This document shows, one piece after another, positions 3,439-32,005 of a stretch of DNA of 35,163 nt (position 1 is the stretch's first letter; every line of letters begins with the position of its first letter). Where the stretch lies: IMG/VR virus record IMGVR_UViG_3300010397_000071, positions 1-35,163 of that record, one strand, 5' to 3'. A program made the translations under genes and the position numbers. The notes beneath the pieces were generated by a model. It searched no databases, was not told the DNA's origin, and saw only the letters and a list, made by a program, of their open reading frames with translations. This DNA is from a virus.

Positions 3439-5355
3439 GTGCCGCACATGGCAGACGCCTCAAACGGGCAGGTCAGGATACCAACAGGCCAACTTGATTG
3501 GAGTTCTGGCGTTGACTCGTCTCGTGCCACCACCATTTCAGGTCCAAACTTCCCAAACGGATTATCCCAAAACTCGCTGGCTTGGGCCAATAACGCAATA
3601 ATGCGGAACGGCGGGGTTGGTCAACGCACGGCATTTGTTCCGGTCTGCAAAATCCAGCCATCAACCGGGCTTTACCAAGGCGGCTGGATGTACGAACAGG
3701 TTGGTGGATTTCCGTATCTGATCGTGGCAATCAGTGGCAAGTTTTACCGAATCCGCCTGGACACGGATAACAGCGTTCAGCTTATTCCGTCCCCAATCTT
3801 CCCAGCCACGGCTCCGTTTTACCACTTCGCTCAAGGCGAGGAATTCATGGTGGTTCAGGCCGGGGATTACACCACGCTTCCCCTGTTCTGGGATGGTGTC
3901 TCATTCCGACAGAGCTTGGGCTTGGCGGGAGTGACAAAGGAACTCGCCGCCGCTGGTCCAATGGTGTACTACCAAGGCCGAATCTGGTACGCTTACTTCA
4001 CGCAATACACGGCAGGCGACATCGTTCGAGGTCCAAGCGGAACTGCTCCGTACCAGCTTCGGGATTCGATCCTCAAAGTGACGGAAAATCCTTTGGCAAT
4101 TGGCGGGGATGGATTTGCCGTGCCGTCTCAGGCCGGAAACATACGCGCCCTGCAATATTCGGCCAATCTTGACAAAACGCTTGGAGAGGGCACCCTGTTC
4201 GTATTCACACGACAACAGGTATATGCGTTGGACGTTCCAATCACGCGAGCAGACTGGATTGCTGCAAACAGCAATACTCCAGCAAACCAACGTGTGGTTC
4301 AACGCAAGAACGGAGGCGTTTCAGACCGATCTGTTGTGCCCGTCAACGGAGACTTATTTTATCAGTCACTTGAGCCGGGAATCAGAAGCCTGTTCTCCGC
4401 GCTGCGATATTTCAGTCAGTGGGGAAATGCCCAAATCAGCAACAATATCCAGCGTGCCCTTGCGTTCAACGACCGGGCGTTGATGCAGTACTCCAGCGGC
4501 ACGGAATTCGACAACCGCATGTATCAGGCGATTCTGCCTGAGCAGCGACCGCAAGGTGTGGTCAGCCGTGGCATCGCCACGATGGATTTCAACCCCATTT
4601 CCACGCTTGGAGAAAAGACGCCTCCAATCTGGGAGGGTATTTACGAGGGCTTGGACGTGCTGCAATTGTTCAATGGCGACTTTGGTGGGCGTGAACGGGC
4701 ATTTGCCGTGGTGGTGTCTCGCGTGGATGACAGCATTGAGCTTTGGGAAATCACGAATGACCGCAGGTTCGACAACGTTGATACACGGGTTCAGTGGTAC
4801 ATCGAAACCCCGGCATTTACGTGGGATCGTGAATTTGACCTGAAGAAACTGGACGGTGGTGAGATTTGGATGGACAAGGTTTTTGGTCAAGTTGACTTGA
4901 AGGTTTATTACCGCGAGGACGCCAACCCTTGCTGGCAATTGTGGCACGTCGCCCGGTTCTGCACGGCCCGCACAAGCTGCGAGACGATTGACGACCCGGT
5001 TTGCTATCCGGTTGAGCCGCTGCGAGAGAGCGGCAAGTTCCCGATCACGCTTCCGGTTCCACCGCTGCCGCCGTGCGATACTCAGAACTCGCGGCCAATG
5101 AACATTGCCCACCAGTTCCAAGTGAAAATCGAAGTCACGGGTTGGGCAAGGATTCGCGGCCTGATTGTGTACGCCACCCCAGTACTCAAACAGCCGTTTG
5201 GGGATTTGGAATGCGTTCCGGGACCTCTCTCGATAACCCTGCCTTTCCAGCCAACGCCAGCTCCGGAACCTGATGTGGATATTTTGGGACGCGGCCTGGA
5301 GGACGGAAACGCCAGGTCAACCCAGGACGGTTCACTAAGAACAATCTTCGCATAA
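3439..5355 (+). CDS. Virion protein, beta-rich tail or neck component
   Basis: A 638-residue protein that opens the virion block. It starts with a segment of type IPTGQLDWSSGVDSS, then LAWANNAIMRNGGVGQRTAF, and then many short beta-repeats (GLYQGG, YLIVAISGKFYRI, FWDGVSF) as in propeller-type tail or neck proteins of podo- and siphoviruses. Two cysteine-rich patches lie in the last third. The frame opens with GTG 3439; ATG 3448 (MADASNG) is an equally good start. A structural role follows from order and composition; the exact part cannot be named. It ends one base before the next gene. Confidence 0.8.
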   Translation: MPHMADASNGQVRIPTGQLDWSSGVDSSRATTISGPNFPNGLSQNSLAWANNAIMRNGGVGQRTAFVPVCKIQPSTGLYQGGWMYEQVGGFPYLIVAISGKFYRIRLDTDNSVQLIPSPIFPATAPFYHFAQGEEFMVVQAGDYTTLPLFWDGVSFRQSLGLAGVTKELAAAGPMVYYQGRIWYAYFTQYTAGDIVRGPSGTAPYQLRDSILKVTENPLAIGGDGFAVPSQAGNIRALQYSANLDKTLGEGTLFVFTRQQVYALDVPITRADWIAANSNTPANQRVVQRKNGGVSDRSVVPVNGDLFYQSLEPGIRSLFSALRYFSQWGNAQISNNIQRALAFNDRALMQYSSGTEFDNRMYQAILPEQRPQGVVSRGIATMDFNPISTLGEKTPPIWEGIYEGLDVLQLFNGDFGGRERAFAVVVSRVDDSIELWEITNDRRFDNVDTRVQWYIETPAFTWDREFDLKKLDGGEIWMDKVFGQVDLKVYYREDANPCWQLWHVARFCTARTSCETIDDPVCYPVEPLRESGKFPITLPVPPLPPCDTQNSRPMNIAHQFQVKIEVTGWARIRGLIVYATPVLKQPFGDLECVPGPLSITLPFQPTPAPEPDVDILGRGLEDGNARSTQDGSLRTIFA

Positions 5356-23470: not shown

Positions 23471-23653
23471 CGAACAGGCGTAAGCAAAAAGTTTCAGAAT
23501 TGACCTTTGCATAACGGGATATATACGAATCAGGCCGTTGACCTGTCCCTCCCCATCCGGCACCCGCCCCCACCCCTGACAGGAAAAGAGATTCCTTAGG
23601 CCTGAATTAAGTACACACAATAGCCCTTGTCTTTACATGCTGGCCCTTGCCAG

Positions 23654-24334
23654 TCAAGTACTTGTGCCGTCTTGTGGTGTTTGGGCTGGTACTGTACTTG
23701 GCGGGACCACACCAGACACAACGGGTTGTGGTGTGTCGGCCCACGCTTCGACAGTACGGCCGGCCTTGCGGCTGGTACGTTCTGGCATGGGACGGTACGA
23801 ACCGGGCAAGGGCCGGCCTGCCAGGATACGCTCTTGCTCGCTAAGGCGGGCTTGGGCCGAGGCTAAACGGTCAAGCTTTTGCGGGTCTGACTCGACAAGC
23901 ATCATGGCGTCAACCCGGTCAAGCTGAAGCCGTACACGCTCTGCCCTTGTGCGCGTGTAAATTGTCAAATCCGGTGCAGGTTCAGTAATTACAGGTGCGG
24001 GTGCTTGTGTAATTACAGCCTTGGCTTGGGCTTGGATCACCTGTTTAAGCTCTAAAACCTCTTGTTGGCGTGCAATTTTAGCGGCCAATCTGGTTTGCAC
24101 GGACAATTGCTGGCAAAGCTTGGCATTTTCGGCAGTAATCACACCGTTACCGTTAACGTAATGATTTGAGACTGTCAAGAACGTCTCAGGATCAGTTATA
24201 GCGCATCCTGATTGATGCCTGGCTGTGTTGACCCTCGGCTGTGCGGTACGTGACAATGGCAGGCTAAGGACCGGGCGTGTACGTGAGAAACCCGGCCTTG
24301 TAGGGGCCGGGTTGGTGGCTGGGGAATTAACCAA
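23654..24334 (-). CDS. Helical, probably DNA-binding protein
   Basis: A 226-residue protein. It begins with a Pro/Arg/Ser-rich tail (residues 1-45). TVSNHYVNGNGVITAENAKL follows, then an Ala/Gln helix, then a long helical segment (ERVRLQLDRVDAMMLVESDPQKLDRLASAQARLSEQERIL). It ends in a Pro/Thr-rich tail. The ARLSEQERILAGRPLPGSYRP stretch recurs in phage regulatory or small-terminase-like proteins, but neither call is secure. TTG 24334 follows the preceding TGA directly, which supports this start. Confidence 0.78.
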   Translation of the reverse strand: MVNSPATNPAPTRPGFSRTRPVLSLPLSRTAQPRVNTARHQSGCAITDPETFLTVSNHYVNGNGVITAENAKLCQQLSVQTRLAAKIARQQEVLELKQVIQAQAKAVITQAPAPVITEPAPDLTIYTRTRAERVRLQLDRVDAMMLVESDPQKLDRLASAQARLSEQERILAGRPLPGSYRPMPERTSRKAGRTVEAWADTPQPVVSGVVPPSTVPAQTPQDGTST

Positions 24335-24981: not shown

Positions 24982-25069
24982 GTTTATTTTCAAGTTGATT
25001 GTTTAACCGTGGCTTCATTGTCTCATGCTCAATGCAGCTTGTGAAGGTGGCGCGAATACGTATTTCCTT

Positions 25070-25140
25070 GTCGGGTCAAAACCATAGCAATCATGGCACA
25101 GGAATATTCTTGTGCCAGTCTGTAAAGAATTAGACCCGAC
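25070..25140. promoter_or_regulatory. Concentric palindrome, operator-like
   Basis: A near-perfect 24-base palindrome (25094-25117, TGGCACA-N-GAATATTC-N-TGTGCCA, one mismatched pair) is nested inside an 8-bp inverted repeat, GTCGGGTC (25070-25077) and GACCCGAC (25133-25140). Both share the same centre within half a base. It sits between two divergent units. A symmetric protein-binding site or cruciform is likely; a shared operator is the inference. Confidence 0.6.
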
Positions 25141-25154
25141 TAAAATTGCGTAGT

Positions 25155-25274
25155 TTGCCCGACTATACAAGCTTCCCGGTTCTGTCATGCTGAGAGCGTG
25201 AAATTTGAACCGCGCACAAAGTTAAACCAGTCGGGCAAGGTTGTTTCGGCTTGTGGTACTAGCGTGCGCGGTTC
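25155..25274. repeat. Further inverted repeats of the divergent control region
   Basis: TTGCCCGACT (25155-25164) and AGTCGGGCAA (25229-25238) form a perfect 10-bp inverted repeat. GAACCGCGCAC (25207-25217) and GTGCGCGGTTC (25264-25274) form an 11-bp one. CCCGACTA occurs directly repeated at 25136 and 25158, 22 bases apart, two helical turns. GTCGGG/CCCGAC is thus present four times between 25070 and 25235. The A/C-rich leader of the 25308 gene follows. Confidence 0.55.
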
Positions 25275-25307
25275 TCTCAACTAAACAAACTCAACCGAAA
25301 TGAAAAT

Positions 25308-25388
25308 ATGAAAACACTGTATCAGGAAATTGCTTCACTCGTTCAAGCCCGCCTTTGCAATCCGGCTCCGGTTCAAACTGTAGCCTGA
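25308..25388 (+). CDS. Tiny 26-residue ORF after the control region
   Basis: ATG 25308 opens a 26-residue ORF (MKTLYQEIASLVQARLCNP, then APVQTVA). The leader is AACCGAAATGAAAAT. It is the first ORF of the rightward unit and shares its MKTL start with the next gene at 25414. It may be a leader peptide or a very small gene. Confidence 0.4.
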   Translation: MKTLYQEIASLVQARLCNPAPVQTVA

Positions 25389-25413
25389 TTCAACCATTTA
25401 ACCCTGATTCACA

Positions 25414-25788
25414 ATGAAAACATTATCTTACCAACTCAGCGGCGATTACGAAGCGAAACAAGCTAAGGCGCAACTTGCGGACCTTTACGCCACGGACCCT
25501 GTTAAGGCGTGCAGGCTGGCGCTTCGCCGCACTAAACACTTATCCGAAAACGACAGGCTGGAGGCGTGCAATACGCTTTTGGGGATGCACGGCACAGAAG
25601 CAATTCGCGGCGAATGGCAGAACGGGTACTGGTACTACATTGTTGCGGCTTATTGCAACACAGGCGACACCTACGCGGTTACGGTTATTCAAGTGCGCGG
25701 CGAATTTAACGGAGACCGCTCGCGCTTCATCGTTTCAAGCTGGGGCGACTGGGTTGAGAAGAATTCGGACAAGTACGGGATTGTTTAA
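25414..25788 (+). CDS. Conserved phage protein, unknown
   Basis: A 124-residue protein: KQAKAQLADLYATDPVKACRLALRRT, HGTEAIRGEWQNGYWYYIVAAYCNTGDTYA and FIVSSWGDWVEKNSDKYGIV. The CNTGDTY...SSWGDWVE end looks like a small alpha-beta fold family found in phages, function unknown. The A-rich leader has no Shine-Dalgarno site. A GC-rich hairpin follows the stop at 25792. Confidence 0.78.
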   Translation: MKTLSYQLSGDYEAKQAKAQLADLYATDPVKACRLALRRTKHLSENDRLEACNTLLGMHGTEAIRGEWQNGYWYYIVAAYCNTGDTYAVTVIQVRGEFNGDRSRFIVSSWGDWVEKNSDKYGIV

Positions 25789-25791
25789 CCC

Positions 25792-25846
25792 CCAGACAAC
25801 CCCGGCAGCTTGAAACCCTGCCGGGCCGTCTGGCGGTTGGCGCCAG
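25792..25846 (+). terminator. Two overlapping hairpins, terminator or attenuator-like
   Basis: CCCGGCAG (25801-25808) and CTGCCGGG (25818-25825) form an 8-bp stem, extended by CCAGAC/GTCTGG (25792-25797 with 25828-25833). A second hairpin, CTGGCG/CGCCAG (25830-25835 with 25841-25846), competes for CTGG. No U-run follows. Alternative pairing is reminiscent of attenuation. The next gene starts at 25882 after an A-rich leader. Confidence 0.45.
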
Positions 25847-25881
25847 CAAACAACAAAAACAAACTCAACGACTGAAAATAT

Positions 25882-26271
25882 ATGAATAACCCAGAATATG
25901 AACAAAACGAAGCGCGGCTCCTTGCCGCACAAATTCGAGAAGTTGAATTGGCACCGCTAGCAGACAGGCGGGACGCTCGCAATGGATGGCACGAAGCCAT
26001 TAAGACCTTCCCTGATCTTGTCGCAGAACGTGTAAGCTGGATCATCAATGGCAGCTACGGTTATGGCGCTTGCATGGCCGCAAAGCGAATCGTGGACAGT
26101 CCCCGCATGAATCAGGCTGACGCGCTTAGCCAACTGGTGGCCGCGCTTGAATGGAACTGTCCGTCAGCCTTTGCCCGTGAAGCTTTCCTGAGTCTGAGCA
26201 ACGCTGAACAGAAGCGCATCAACGACGCAATCAAAGCCGAGATTGAAACGACTGAGTGCGCGATTGCATGA
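25882..26271 (+). CDS. Phage protein, helical
   Basis: A 129-residue protein with charged helices: ARLLAAQIREVELAPLADRRDARNGWHEAIK, AERVSWIINGSYGYGACMAAKRIV, ADALSQLVAALEWN and LSNAEQKRINDAIKAEIE. NGSYGYG is a conserved-looking turn. No enzyme signature. An ATGA overlap at 26268 links a tiny downstream ORF. Family not recognised by name. Confidence 0.75.
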   Translation: MNNPEYEQNEARLLAAQIREVELAPLADRRDARNGWHEAIKTFPDLVAERVSWIINGSYGYGACMAAKRIVDSPRMNQADALSQLVAALEWNCPSAFAREAFLSLSNAEQKRINDAIKAEIETTECAIA

Positions 26272-26345
26272 ACCCACTTTGCCGCACCTGCCCCGTGAAT
26301 TTTCAAGCCGTGGATCATCTGCCCGGCTCTTTTCCACGCGGGTAG
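26268..26345 (+). CDS. Tiny ORF with CxxC, or hairpin region
   Basis: A 25-residue ORF (MNPLCRTCPVNF, then QAVDHLPGSFPRG) with a CRTC pair and an ATGA overlap upstream. Most of it lies in the arms of the inverted repeat at 26281-26352, so it may be an RNA element rather than a gene. Confidence 0.3.
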   Translation: MNPLCRTCPVNFQAVDHLPGSFPRG

Positions 26346-26727: not shown

Positions 26728-27222
26728 ATGAAATCAACACTTGCAGCTTTATTTGCTGGTACAGCTTTAGCCAGCGCAACGACAATCACCATCAACCAGG
26801 ACGCCCCCGGCCTGCTGGACTTCTCAATTGATTGGGGCCAAACAATAGACCCGTACGGCACCGTTGCGGTCGGAAAAGGCGGCTCCAGCGTGGAATGGCA
26901 CACCGGATCAAGCCGAAATCCGAACTATTACTTCGTGGAAATCCATGACAAAAGCCTGCCAAACATTTACGGCTTCGGACTGACCTTTGCGCCCGTGGAG
27001 TGGACCGGGCCGGTTTATACAGCCCTGGCCGACGCCAAGACCAGCAATGGCGAGGTTTTGAACCTGCATGGCAACCCTTACGGAGCCAGATGGGTTTACG
27101 GCGCATCTGTTATCGAGGTTGCCAGCAGGCCACAAGGCAACAGCGTGCCGGATGGTGGCTCGACGGCGTTAATCCTGTGCCTTGGATGTGCGGGATTGTG
27201 TGCATTCAGGAGGGTGACATGA
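26728..27222 (+). CDS. Exported protein with VPDSG-CTERM-type sorting signal
   Basis: A 164-residue protein. The N-terminus is a Sec signal (MKSTLAALFAGTALASAT, cut near ASA-T). A beta-rich mature part follows (ITINQDAPGLLDFSIDWGQT, FVEIHDKSLPNIYGFGLTF). The C-terminus has the tripartite sorting signal: SVPDGGST (about 140-147), a hydrophobic span ALILCLGCAGLCAF, then RR. This is the VPDSG-CTERM relative of PEP-CTERM, processed by exosortase in Verrucomicrobiota-type bacteria. A phage gene with this signal suggests delivery of a protein to the host surface. AGGAGG near its end serves the next gene. Confidence 0.82.
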   Translation: MKSTLAALFAGTALASATTITINQDAPGLLDFSIDWGQTIDPYGTVAVGKGGSSVEWHTGSSRNPNYYFVEIHDKSLPNIYGFGLTFAPVEWTGPVYTALADAKTSNGEVLNLHGNPYGARWVYGASVIEVASRPQGNSVPDGGSTALILCLGCAGLCAFRRVT

Positions 27223-30393: not shown

Positions 30394-30798
30394 ATGAAAT
30401 ACATATACAACGACGGAGGCAACTCCGATCCAAAAGCAAAACGTGACTGCGTGGTGCGGGCAATCGCCATCGCAACCCAACTGCCATACAACCAGGTGCG
30501 CGACCAGATCAACCACCTGGCCGATACGGAATACTTTGACGGCTCCGATGCGGCCCAAGGCGTTCACAAAAAGCTCTACAAGGATTACCTGAGGTCCCTT
30601 GGATGTATCTGGACGCCAACAATGGGCATCGGCACGGGCTGCAAGGTCCACCTGCGCGACGGCGAGTTGCCGATGGGCAGATTGATTGTCAGCGTTAGTC
30701 GTCATTTGGTCGCTGTCATTGACGGAGTGATTAACGACCGCAGCGATTGCAGCCGGGACGGGACAAGGTGTGTTTACGGATATTGGACAAAGCCATGA
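30394..30798 (+). CDS. Papain-like-fold candidate, conserved phage protein
   Basis: A 134-residue protein: YIYNDGGNSDPKAKRDCVVRAIAIATQLPY, GVHKKLYKDYLRSLGCIWTP, GCKVHLRDGELPMGRLIVSV, SRHLVAVIDGVINDRSDCSR and CVYGYWTKP. A Cys in DCVVRAIA near residue 19, a His in SRHLVAV and an Asp/Asn after it are placed as in C39- or NlpC-type thiol folds. This is a widespread uncharacterised family in phages. Protease activity has not been shown here; the layout could also be a non-enzymatic fold. Confidence 0.75.
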   Translation: MKYIYNDGGNSDPKAKRDCVVRAIAIATQLPYNQVRDQINHLADTEYFDGSDAAQGVHKKLYKDYLRSLGCIWTPTMGIGTGCKVHLRDGELPMGRLIVSVSRHLVAVIDGVINDRSDCSRDGTRCVYGYWTKP

Positions 30799-30823: not shown

Positions 30824-31042
30824 ATGAAAACCAACCAATTCAATAGCAAGTGTCAGCATAATATCATGGTAAAAAACAGCAGCAAAAAGCACGCATGGAC
30901 ATGTGCCATTTGTGGCCACATTTACGGCATGGAAACATGCCATGTGTGCGGAATGGACTTAATCATTCACGGACAAACGTGCGTTGCAGGCGCATCGCTT
31001 CATCAAGATCAAGCCACTGGAGAAAAACTACTGATTCCGTGA
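30824..31042 (+). CDS. Small zinc-finger-like protein
   Basis: A 72-residue protein with CQHNIMV, WTCAICGHIYGMETCHVCGMDLIIHGQTC. The CxxC ... CxxC pattern is a zinc ribbon. It starts ATG 30824 after an A-rich leader. Its TGA overlaps the next GTG. Confidence 0.65.
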   Translation: MKTNQFNSKCQHNIMVKNSSKKHAWTCAICGHIYGMETCHVCGMDLIIHGQTCVAGASLHQDQATGEKLLIP

Positions 31043-31173
31043 AGTGGAAATTCGACACGTCCAAGCCATGCCCTAGATGTGGCAGGCCAATGAGAAAAAC
31101 AACAGCCGGGTTCGCTTGTTATCGGAAGCTGTGCCGACTCGGAAAACTTCCTGTAAAATTTCGCTTGCAATGA
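31039..31173 (+). CDS. Tiny zinc-ribbon protein
   Basis: A 44-residue ORF from GTG 31039, overlapping the preceding TGA (GTGA). PCPRCGRPMRKTTAGFACYRKLC contains two cysteine pairs. The end, KFRLQ, is followed at once by the structured stretch described at 31196. A short upstream-frame ORF read over that stretch looks artificial. Confidence 0.55.
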   Translation: MKWKFDTSKPCPRCGRPMRKTTAGFACYRKLCRLGKLPVKFRLQ

Positions 31174-31195
31174 ATCCGAGTCAGGCGCAAACTAG

Positions 31196-31735
31196 CGGCG
31201 TTCAACGGGTGGTTTCCACCCTACAAAACGCATGTCAAAACGAGACTTTCAAGACTCAAGTTCATCCGGCTCAATGCCCGTTGAACACTCGCAAACCATG
31301 CGCTCGCGTGGGAGGCGGACACTTGAGGATTGTACCCAGGCGGCGTAACTGCCGACCTGGGGATTTTCTCCTTAGCTCGCTGAACTCTTTGGCCCGCCTT
31401 TGGGCGGTGCTACTGGTAGGGCACGCGAGGACCTCCCAACTCACCGGCCAACAAGAAACAGCAAACGTCATGGCTTTGAATGCTGACGTGGCTTGTCCGA
31501 ACGTATTGAACGGACCAGCAGTAGCGGGTTATGTCACCCGCCGTCAGCATCCAGAGCCTTGCGGTTTGCCTTTTCTTTCTTTTCTAGGAGCGGTTGCTGG
31601 AAACGTATTGCAGAACCACAGGGAATGCTCCGGTCTTTGCTTGGGGGGATTGCTTTGTTGGCTTTCTTTCCTTTTCGGTTTTGTTTTGCGTTCGAGCAGC
31701 ACTTTAGCGGTTCCAGTACAGTCCAACCCTTAACC
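31196..31735 (+). ncRNA. Candidate large structured non-coding RNA
   Basis: About 540 bases with no convincing gene (a 187-codon frame has odd composition) but very many long complementary segments. GTTCAACGGG/CCCGTTGAAC (31200-31209 with 31277-31286) is 10 bp perfect. CTCGCGTG/CACGCGAG (303-310 with 422-429) is 8 bp. A hairpin lies at 31335-31361. ATGCTGACG/CGTCAGCAT (480-488 with 542-550) encloses two hairpins, GTCCG/CGGAC and GCGGGT/ACCCGC. GGAGC/GCTCC (587-591 with 627-631) encloses another. CTCAAGT/ACTTGAG (255-261 with 321-327) crosses the first stem as a pseudoknot. Two hairpin loops share ACGTATTG. Size and folding recall the ornate phage RNAs GOLLD and ROOL; membership is not shown. 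Confidence 0.5.
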
Positions 31736-31741
31736 AACCCC

Positions 31742-32005
31742 ATGACAATCTACAAGTACCCACTTGAAATAACAGACGAACAGGCCGTGATGATGCCAAC
31801 ATTGTGCAAAATCATTACGGTTCAAATGCAACACGGAAAGCCCTGCTTGTGGGCAATCGTTAATGAACATGACCGGATTTCAAGGTTAAGAACCATTGAC
31901 ATATTCGGCACTGGAAACCCTATGGACAATCAGGAGCGGGCTTATATTGGCACCATTCAACAAGCCGGTGGTGCATTAGTGTGGCATGTGTTTGAGAGGC
32001 TATGA
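31742..32005 (+). CDS. DUF7352-like protein
   Basis: An 87-residue protein from ATG 31742: TIYKYPLEITDEQAVMMPTL, CKIITVQMQHGKPCLWAIVN, IDIFGTGNPMD and YIGTIQQAGGALVWHVFERL. This is the pattern of the small DUF7352 family found in phages and plasmids, of unknown function. It starts right after the structured RNA and a leader AACCAACCCC. ATGA overlap with the next ORF at 32002. Confidence 0.78.
   Translation: MTIYKYPLEITDEQAVMMPTLCKIITVQMQHGKPCLWAIVNEHDRISRLRTIDIFGTGNPMDNQERAYIGTIQQAGGALVWHVFERL

Follow-up and report, generated by a model that had tools for sequence, protein, structure and literature searches.

The region from about 31196 to 31700 on the plus strand of the window, i.e. of the whole 35,163-nt stretch of virus record IMGVR_UViG_3300010397_000071 that was analysed, is probably a gene in its own right, encoding a large structured non-coding RNA that belongs to an unlisted family. 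We propose that this RNA serves as a trans scaffold in the phage lineage that carries it. The RNA is non-coding, and a related phage carries a homologue (IMGVR_UViG_3300036900_000166, here G019, at about 4240-4790). Judged from the two sequences, the RNA is very probably large, folded and non-coding, and its distant relative would keep the folds through matched-pair changes.

The candidate locus is a 568-nt gap (31174-31741) whose surrounding genes are all on the plus strand, and the RNA likely spans about 31196 to 31700 of it on the same strand. An earlier note, made from the sequence of the window, had placed the RNA between small Cys-rich genes and a DUF7352-like gene, and this placement holds. 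Upstream lie two small Cys-rich ORFs (30824-31173, plus strand) without a family match. The downstream neighbour (31742-32005, plus strand), which is outside the RNA, is a DUF7352 gene (Pfam PF24043, 93 bits), and the gap stops directly before its start codon. The upstream region also contains a 134-aa gene (30394-30798) assigned to phrog_3754, a family annotated without a function; viral contigs contain 284 relatives of this gene, and the nearest is 78% identical.

The plus strand of 31196-31735 folds at -215.9 kcal/mol, which corresponds to z = -5.35 against 100 dinucleotide shuffles; the minus strand reaches z = -4.24. Among 195 segments of 240 nt that cover the whole contig, 31321-31560 is the most extreme in folding. 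For the 240-nt segment around 31321, folding is stronger on the minus strand, and in the window alone the two strands are close in folding. The RNA contains perfect Watson-Crick stems of 10, 9, 8 and 8 bp, while shuffles average 0.07 stems of at least 10 bp and 1.55 stems of at least 8 bp. The 10-bp stem (31200-31209/31276-31285) closes a 5' domain at 31200-31285. Elsewhere in the window, a 420-nt region with a weak coding signal (24994-25413) folds above average (z about -3.9), and the plus strand of 23581-23820 and of 181-420, where local ORFs are weak or on the minus strand, folds at z < -3.7.

The homologue in G019 was found blind by a structure scan, because sequence searches had failed. 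Relatives were gathered via their terminase and tail genes and then scanned for segments whose folding exceeds the expectation from their GC content. The best two of the 2149 segments in this GC-corrected scan, which covered the window and seven related virus records, were G019 4201 and window 31321, the latter at rank 2. The terminases of the two phages are 56% identical. The G019 stretch is intergenic and folds at z -8.0 over 601 nt. A Smith-Waterman comparison with the window RNA scores 34, with a shuffle maximum of 23 (z about 11), and each stretch is the best-scoring segment in the genome of the other. By part, the similarity is significant on its own in the middle (z 6.1) and at the 3' end (z 5.8), and it is not significant at the 5' end (z -0.8). 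From the window sequence alone we made a covariance model (R2), which detects G019 at 49.6 bits and E 3.3e-14, a rough value because the model is short-calibrated; the next match in 417 kb scores 11 bits. Of the RNA that the earlier note had drawn at 31196-31735, the conserved and covarying part comprises about 31360-31690, whereas 31196-31360, including the 5' domain, has no detectable sequence conservation.

Within the conserved part, three elements follow each other in the same order and on one strand in both phages, and we propose them as the signature of the family: a UUUG hairpin, a long hairpin of 34 positions and a pyrimidine tract with AGGRGCGG. The short hairpin (31390-31412, plus strand; GGCCCGCC-UUUG-GGCGG-U-GCU) is made of 9 pairs, and 2 of these are compensatory in G019. 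The long hairpin (31455-31575, plus strand) has arms at 31455-31488/31542-31575 that align without gaps to L134 4513-4546/4620-4653 and include 9 compensatory pairs; the window and its G019 counterpart have an internal loop and a single U-G pair of this hairpin in common. Its tip (31495-31541, plus strand) carries two small hairpins, one at 31495-31515 with the loop AACGTATTGAA and one at 31524-31541, and is variable in G019. The pyrimidine tract and the AGG(A/G)GCGG that follows it (31570-31586, plus strand) are conserved. Further upstream, a hairpin at 31335-31361 (plus strand) immediately precedes the conserved word GGGATTTTC, and the equivalent place in G019 is occupied by a longer hairpin.

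Taken together, the short and the long hairpin contain 11 pairs that are changed on both sides yet still paired, and 97.4% of cells are paired, as counted in one pairwise comparison of two distinct sequences, with the variable tip trimmed from the alignment and the pairs picked with both sequences in view. None of 500 shuffles reached 11 doubly changed pairs, and sliding the partner strand reduced the count to 0-2. The two helices are therefore maintained by compensatory changes between the two phages. Two other, weakly supported helices are present in both phages and vary too little for a covariation test. One is a short helix, GGAGCG/UGCUCC (31587-31592/31626-31631, plus strand), with one compensatory pair in G019. 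The other pairs a G-run with pyrimidines (31643-31649/31669-31675, plus strand), mostly through G-U pairs, and is kept in G019 via one-sided changes.

The earlier note's central claim of a large, strongly folded RNA is thus supported by the fold z of -5.35, the contig-wide extreme and a covarying counterpart. Two of its structural details fared less well. The proposed pseudoknot (31303-31438, plus strand) remains putative: its arms are complementary in the window (31303-31310/31422-31429, 8 bp, and 31309-31315/31432-31438, 7 bp), but the 8-bp helix had no counterpart when the G019 sequence was read. The repeated loop ACGTATTG, which the note had pointed out in two separate hairpins, is a chance-level feature and not supported as a meaningful motif: it is one of four repeated 8-mer pairs where 3.8 are expected, a number that 48% of shuffles also reach, and it is absent from G019.

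The neighbours of the RNA differ between the two phages. In G019 they are a 142-aa ORF, a 66-aa ORF and the terminase, whose gene follows shortly downstream of the RNA; no DUF7352 gene is adjacent to the RNA there. With DUF7352 on one side of the comparison and terminase on the other, the RNA behaves like a stand-alone RNA gene and is probably not the leader of one given gene. It could instead act in cis, as a long leader or intercistronic regulator that controls the downstream gene via folding, processing or attenuation, since in the window it sits between co-directional genes and ends directly before a start codon, and a promoter-like site of its own was looked for and not found. Such a regulator would have to accommodate different genes downstream (DUF7352 in the window, the 66-aa ORF and terminase in G019) as well as upstream, and a leader of about 500 nt that includes a long hairpin would be a large one. 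We therefore regard a cis-acting RNA as rather unlikely and favour the stand-alone gene. Its carriers are a lineage of uncultured tailed phages that probably infect Verrucomicrobiota. A host of this type is suggested by one borderline match: the predicted phage protein at 26728-27222 of the window has a VPDSG-CTERM-like tail, a bacterial surface-sorting signal (TIGR03778, 21.7 bits at a cut-off of 22).

The earlier note had suggested membership in GOLLD or ROOL, or alternatively a new class. Infernal searches with the Rfam covariance models, the check it had proposed, were negative for both families, and a new class is the better of the two alternatives. At the gathering score, none of the 4227 families of Rfam 15 matched the window contig or G019. 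A cmscan of the RNA region at E 10 with permissive filters returned no ROOL and no GOLLD, its sole match being a spurious snoRNA at E 6.6, and G019 gave only matches below the cut-off, mostly to miRNA-type hairpin models. Directed searches of the window record and G019 with ROOL (RF03087) and GOLLD (RF02032) found no match, in runs in which no control genome passed the cut-off. Nor did we find a description of such an RNA in the open-licence literature. Remote members of a family can escape Rfam models, and the size and phage context would suit a diverged ROOL, GOLLD or other described large RNA that current models miss; genes for ROOL itself are found in phages and prophages (PMC12286853). 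Given that neither sequence matches even under permissive conditions, and that the directed searches agree within the limit of their controls, we consider this origin improbable. Large phage RNAs were also noted to lie often near tRNAs, but neither the window nor G019 contains one.

The inverted repeats of the element are strong and fold on either strand. The G019 copy, moreover, shortly precedes the terminase gene, a possible position for a packaging site. The conserved element might be a packaging, replication or recombination site at the DNA level, with repeat arms that have to remain complementary in DNA. The window copy, however, is far from the terminase, and the strands are not equivalent: model R1 gives 180.7 and 185.4 bits on the plus strand of the two sequences and 37.9 and 33.2 bits on the minus strand, and G019 folds at z -7.0 on the plus and -4.5 on the minus strand over 551 nt. 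G-U pairs occur at positions common to both sequences, where a DNA cruciform would have mismatches, and G-U positions outnumber A-C positions on the plus strand. The R1 scores, the shared G-U pairs and the plus-strand folding of G019 favour an RNA over a DNA inverted repeat, which we hold to be an unlikely explanation; on this sequence evidence, the plus strand is the RNA strand.

A frame of 187/218 codons is open across the RNA region. The earlier note had judged its composition implausible. Its codon score is -4.4, where accepted genes score about +4 to +200, searches of Pfam and PHROGs gave zero matches, and tblastn found no protein match in G019. The codon score, the fold z and the lack of family matches mark the whole gap as non-coding. 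In G019 each plus frame contains 3-7 stops across the homologous region, so there is no conserved protein. A frame conserved at the protein level with no covariation in the stems had been named as the outcome that would speak against the RNA; the opposite was found, with the frame lost and the stems covarying. A protein gene, or chance folding of GC-rich DNA, is thus highly improbable in view of the negative codon score, the missing frame, the compensatory changes and the fold z, and the homologue refutes it to the extent that two sequences permit.

Searches for further members brought no third sequence: model R1 found none in about 1.85 Mb of loci plus about 130 virus records, and terminase-based scans of genome collections yielded no prophage relative. 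DNA similarity searches, with the window RNA against phages and plasmids and the G019 RNA against both collections, gave no informative match, a translated scan of viral contigs with the frame over the RNA region gave none, and the loci around 13 DUF7352 relatives contained no such RNA. Several leads were discarded. Viral contigs contain 102 stretches with two AACGTATTG loops 80-105 nt apart, a number near the estimated chance level, and none is homologous. Weak matches in G011 and G008 proved on inspection to be short chance matches, L104 was rejected on score, a 6.8-bit model match in G014/G015 falls within an ORF of 512 aa and is due to chance, and G020 and G022 contain structured stretches that are unrelated in sequence. 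Kissing of palindromic ACGT loops, comparable to the symmetric kissing loops of OLE, GOLLD and ROOL, was dropped, as ACGT is absent from the whole G019 RNA. Separately, the minus strand of a largely non-coding stretch in another related phage (L138:5700-6300; IMGVR_UViG_3300047160_004907, 25700-26300) folds strongly (z -6.78, 20 shuffles) and contains a 21-bp hairpin. It has no sequence match to the window RNA and no Rfam match, and may be a second RNA.

How might the RNA work? By analogy with ROOL, GOLLD and OLE, we suggest that the folded RNA serves as a scaffold in trans, its transcription taking place together with that of the early genes or among them. The long hairpin with its variable tip and the conserved short hairpin would present fixed elements, namely the UUUG loop, the pyrimidine tract with AGGRGCGG and the G-run, and these may bind a phage or host protein or another RNA. 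As in the three known RNAs, the scaffold would function through its shape and not through coding. ROOL, GOLLD and OLE form homo-oligomeric RNA complexes, and the large RNAs whose structures have been solved proved to assemble in unexpected ways, for instance into RNA-only cages (PMC12286853). A more specific and tentative idea is that the RNA represents a new large phage class, unrelated to ROOL and GOLLD, which folds and, by itself or together with a phage protein, assembles as either a discrete particle or a regulator that acts in trans during infection; we see this as possible, though short of an even chance. To our knowledge, very few large structured RNAs of bacteria or phages have been described. 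An independent further family that is backed by covariation, in a phage lineage that has received little study, provides a concrete sequence pair for expression, probing and imaging. Its existence would also suggest that phage genomes repeatedly contain large folded RNAs which annotation tends to miss.

One close point of comparison is ROOL, an RNA of about 570-660 nt that forms an octameric RNA-only nanocage. Like ROOL, the window RNA is phage-borne, non-coding and built of many helices; unlike ROOL, it lacks a match to the covariance model and has no tRNA island nearby, a frequent but not obligatory feature of ROOL. With GOLLD it shares the character of a large structured RNA associated with phages or lakes, but it is smaller, without a model match and without tRNAs. 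OLE and raiA-motif RNAs are likewise large folded bacterial RNAs, which act as RNP or RNA complexes and are not restricted to phages; the window RNA differs from both in having no Rfam match. Finally, the packaging RNA of phi29-type phages offers an analogy only. It is a structured phage RNA, and the G019 gene adjoins the terminase, but phi29-type pRNA is much shorter than the window RNA, whose gene lies far from its own terminase.
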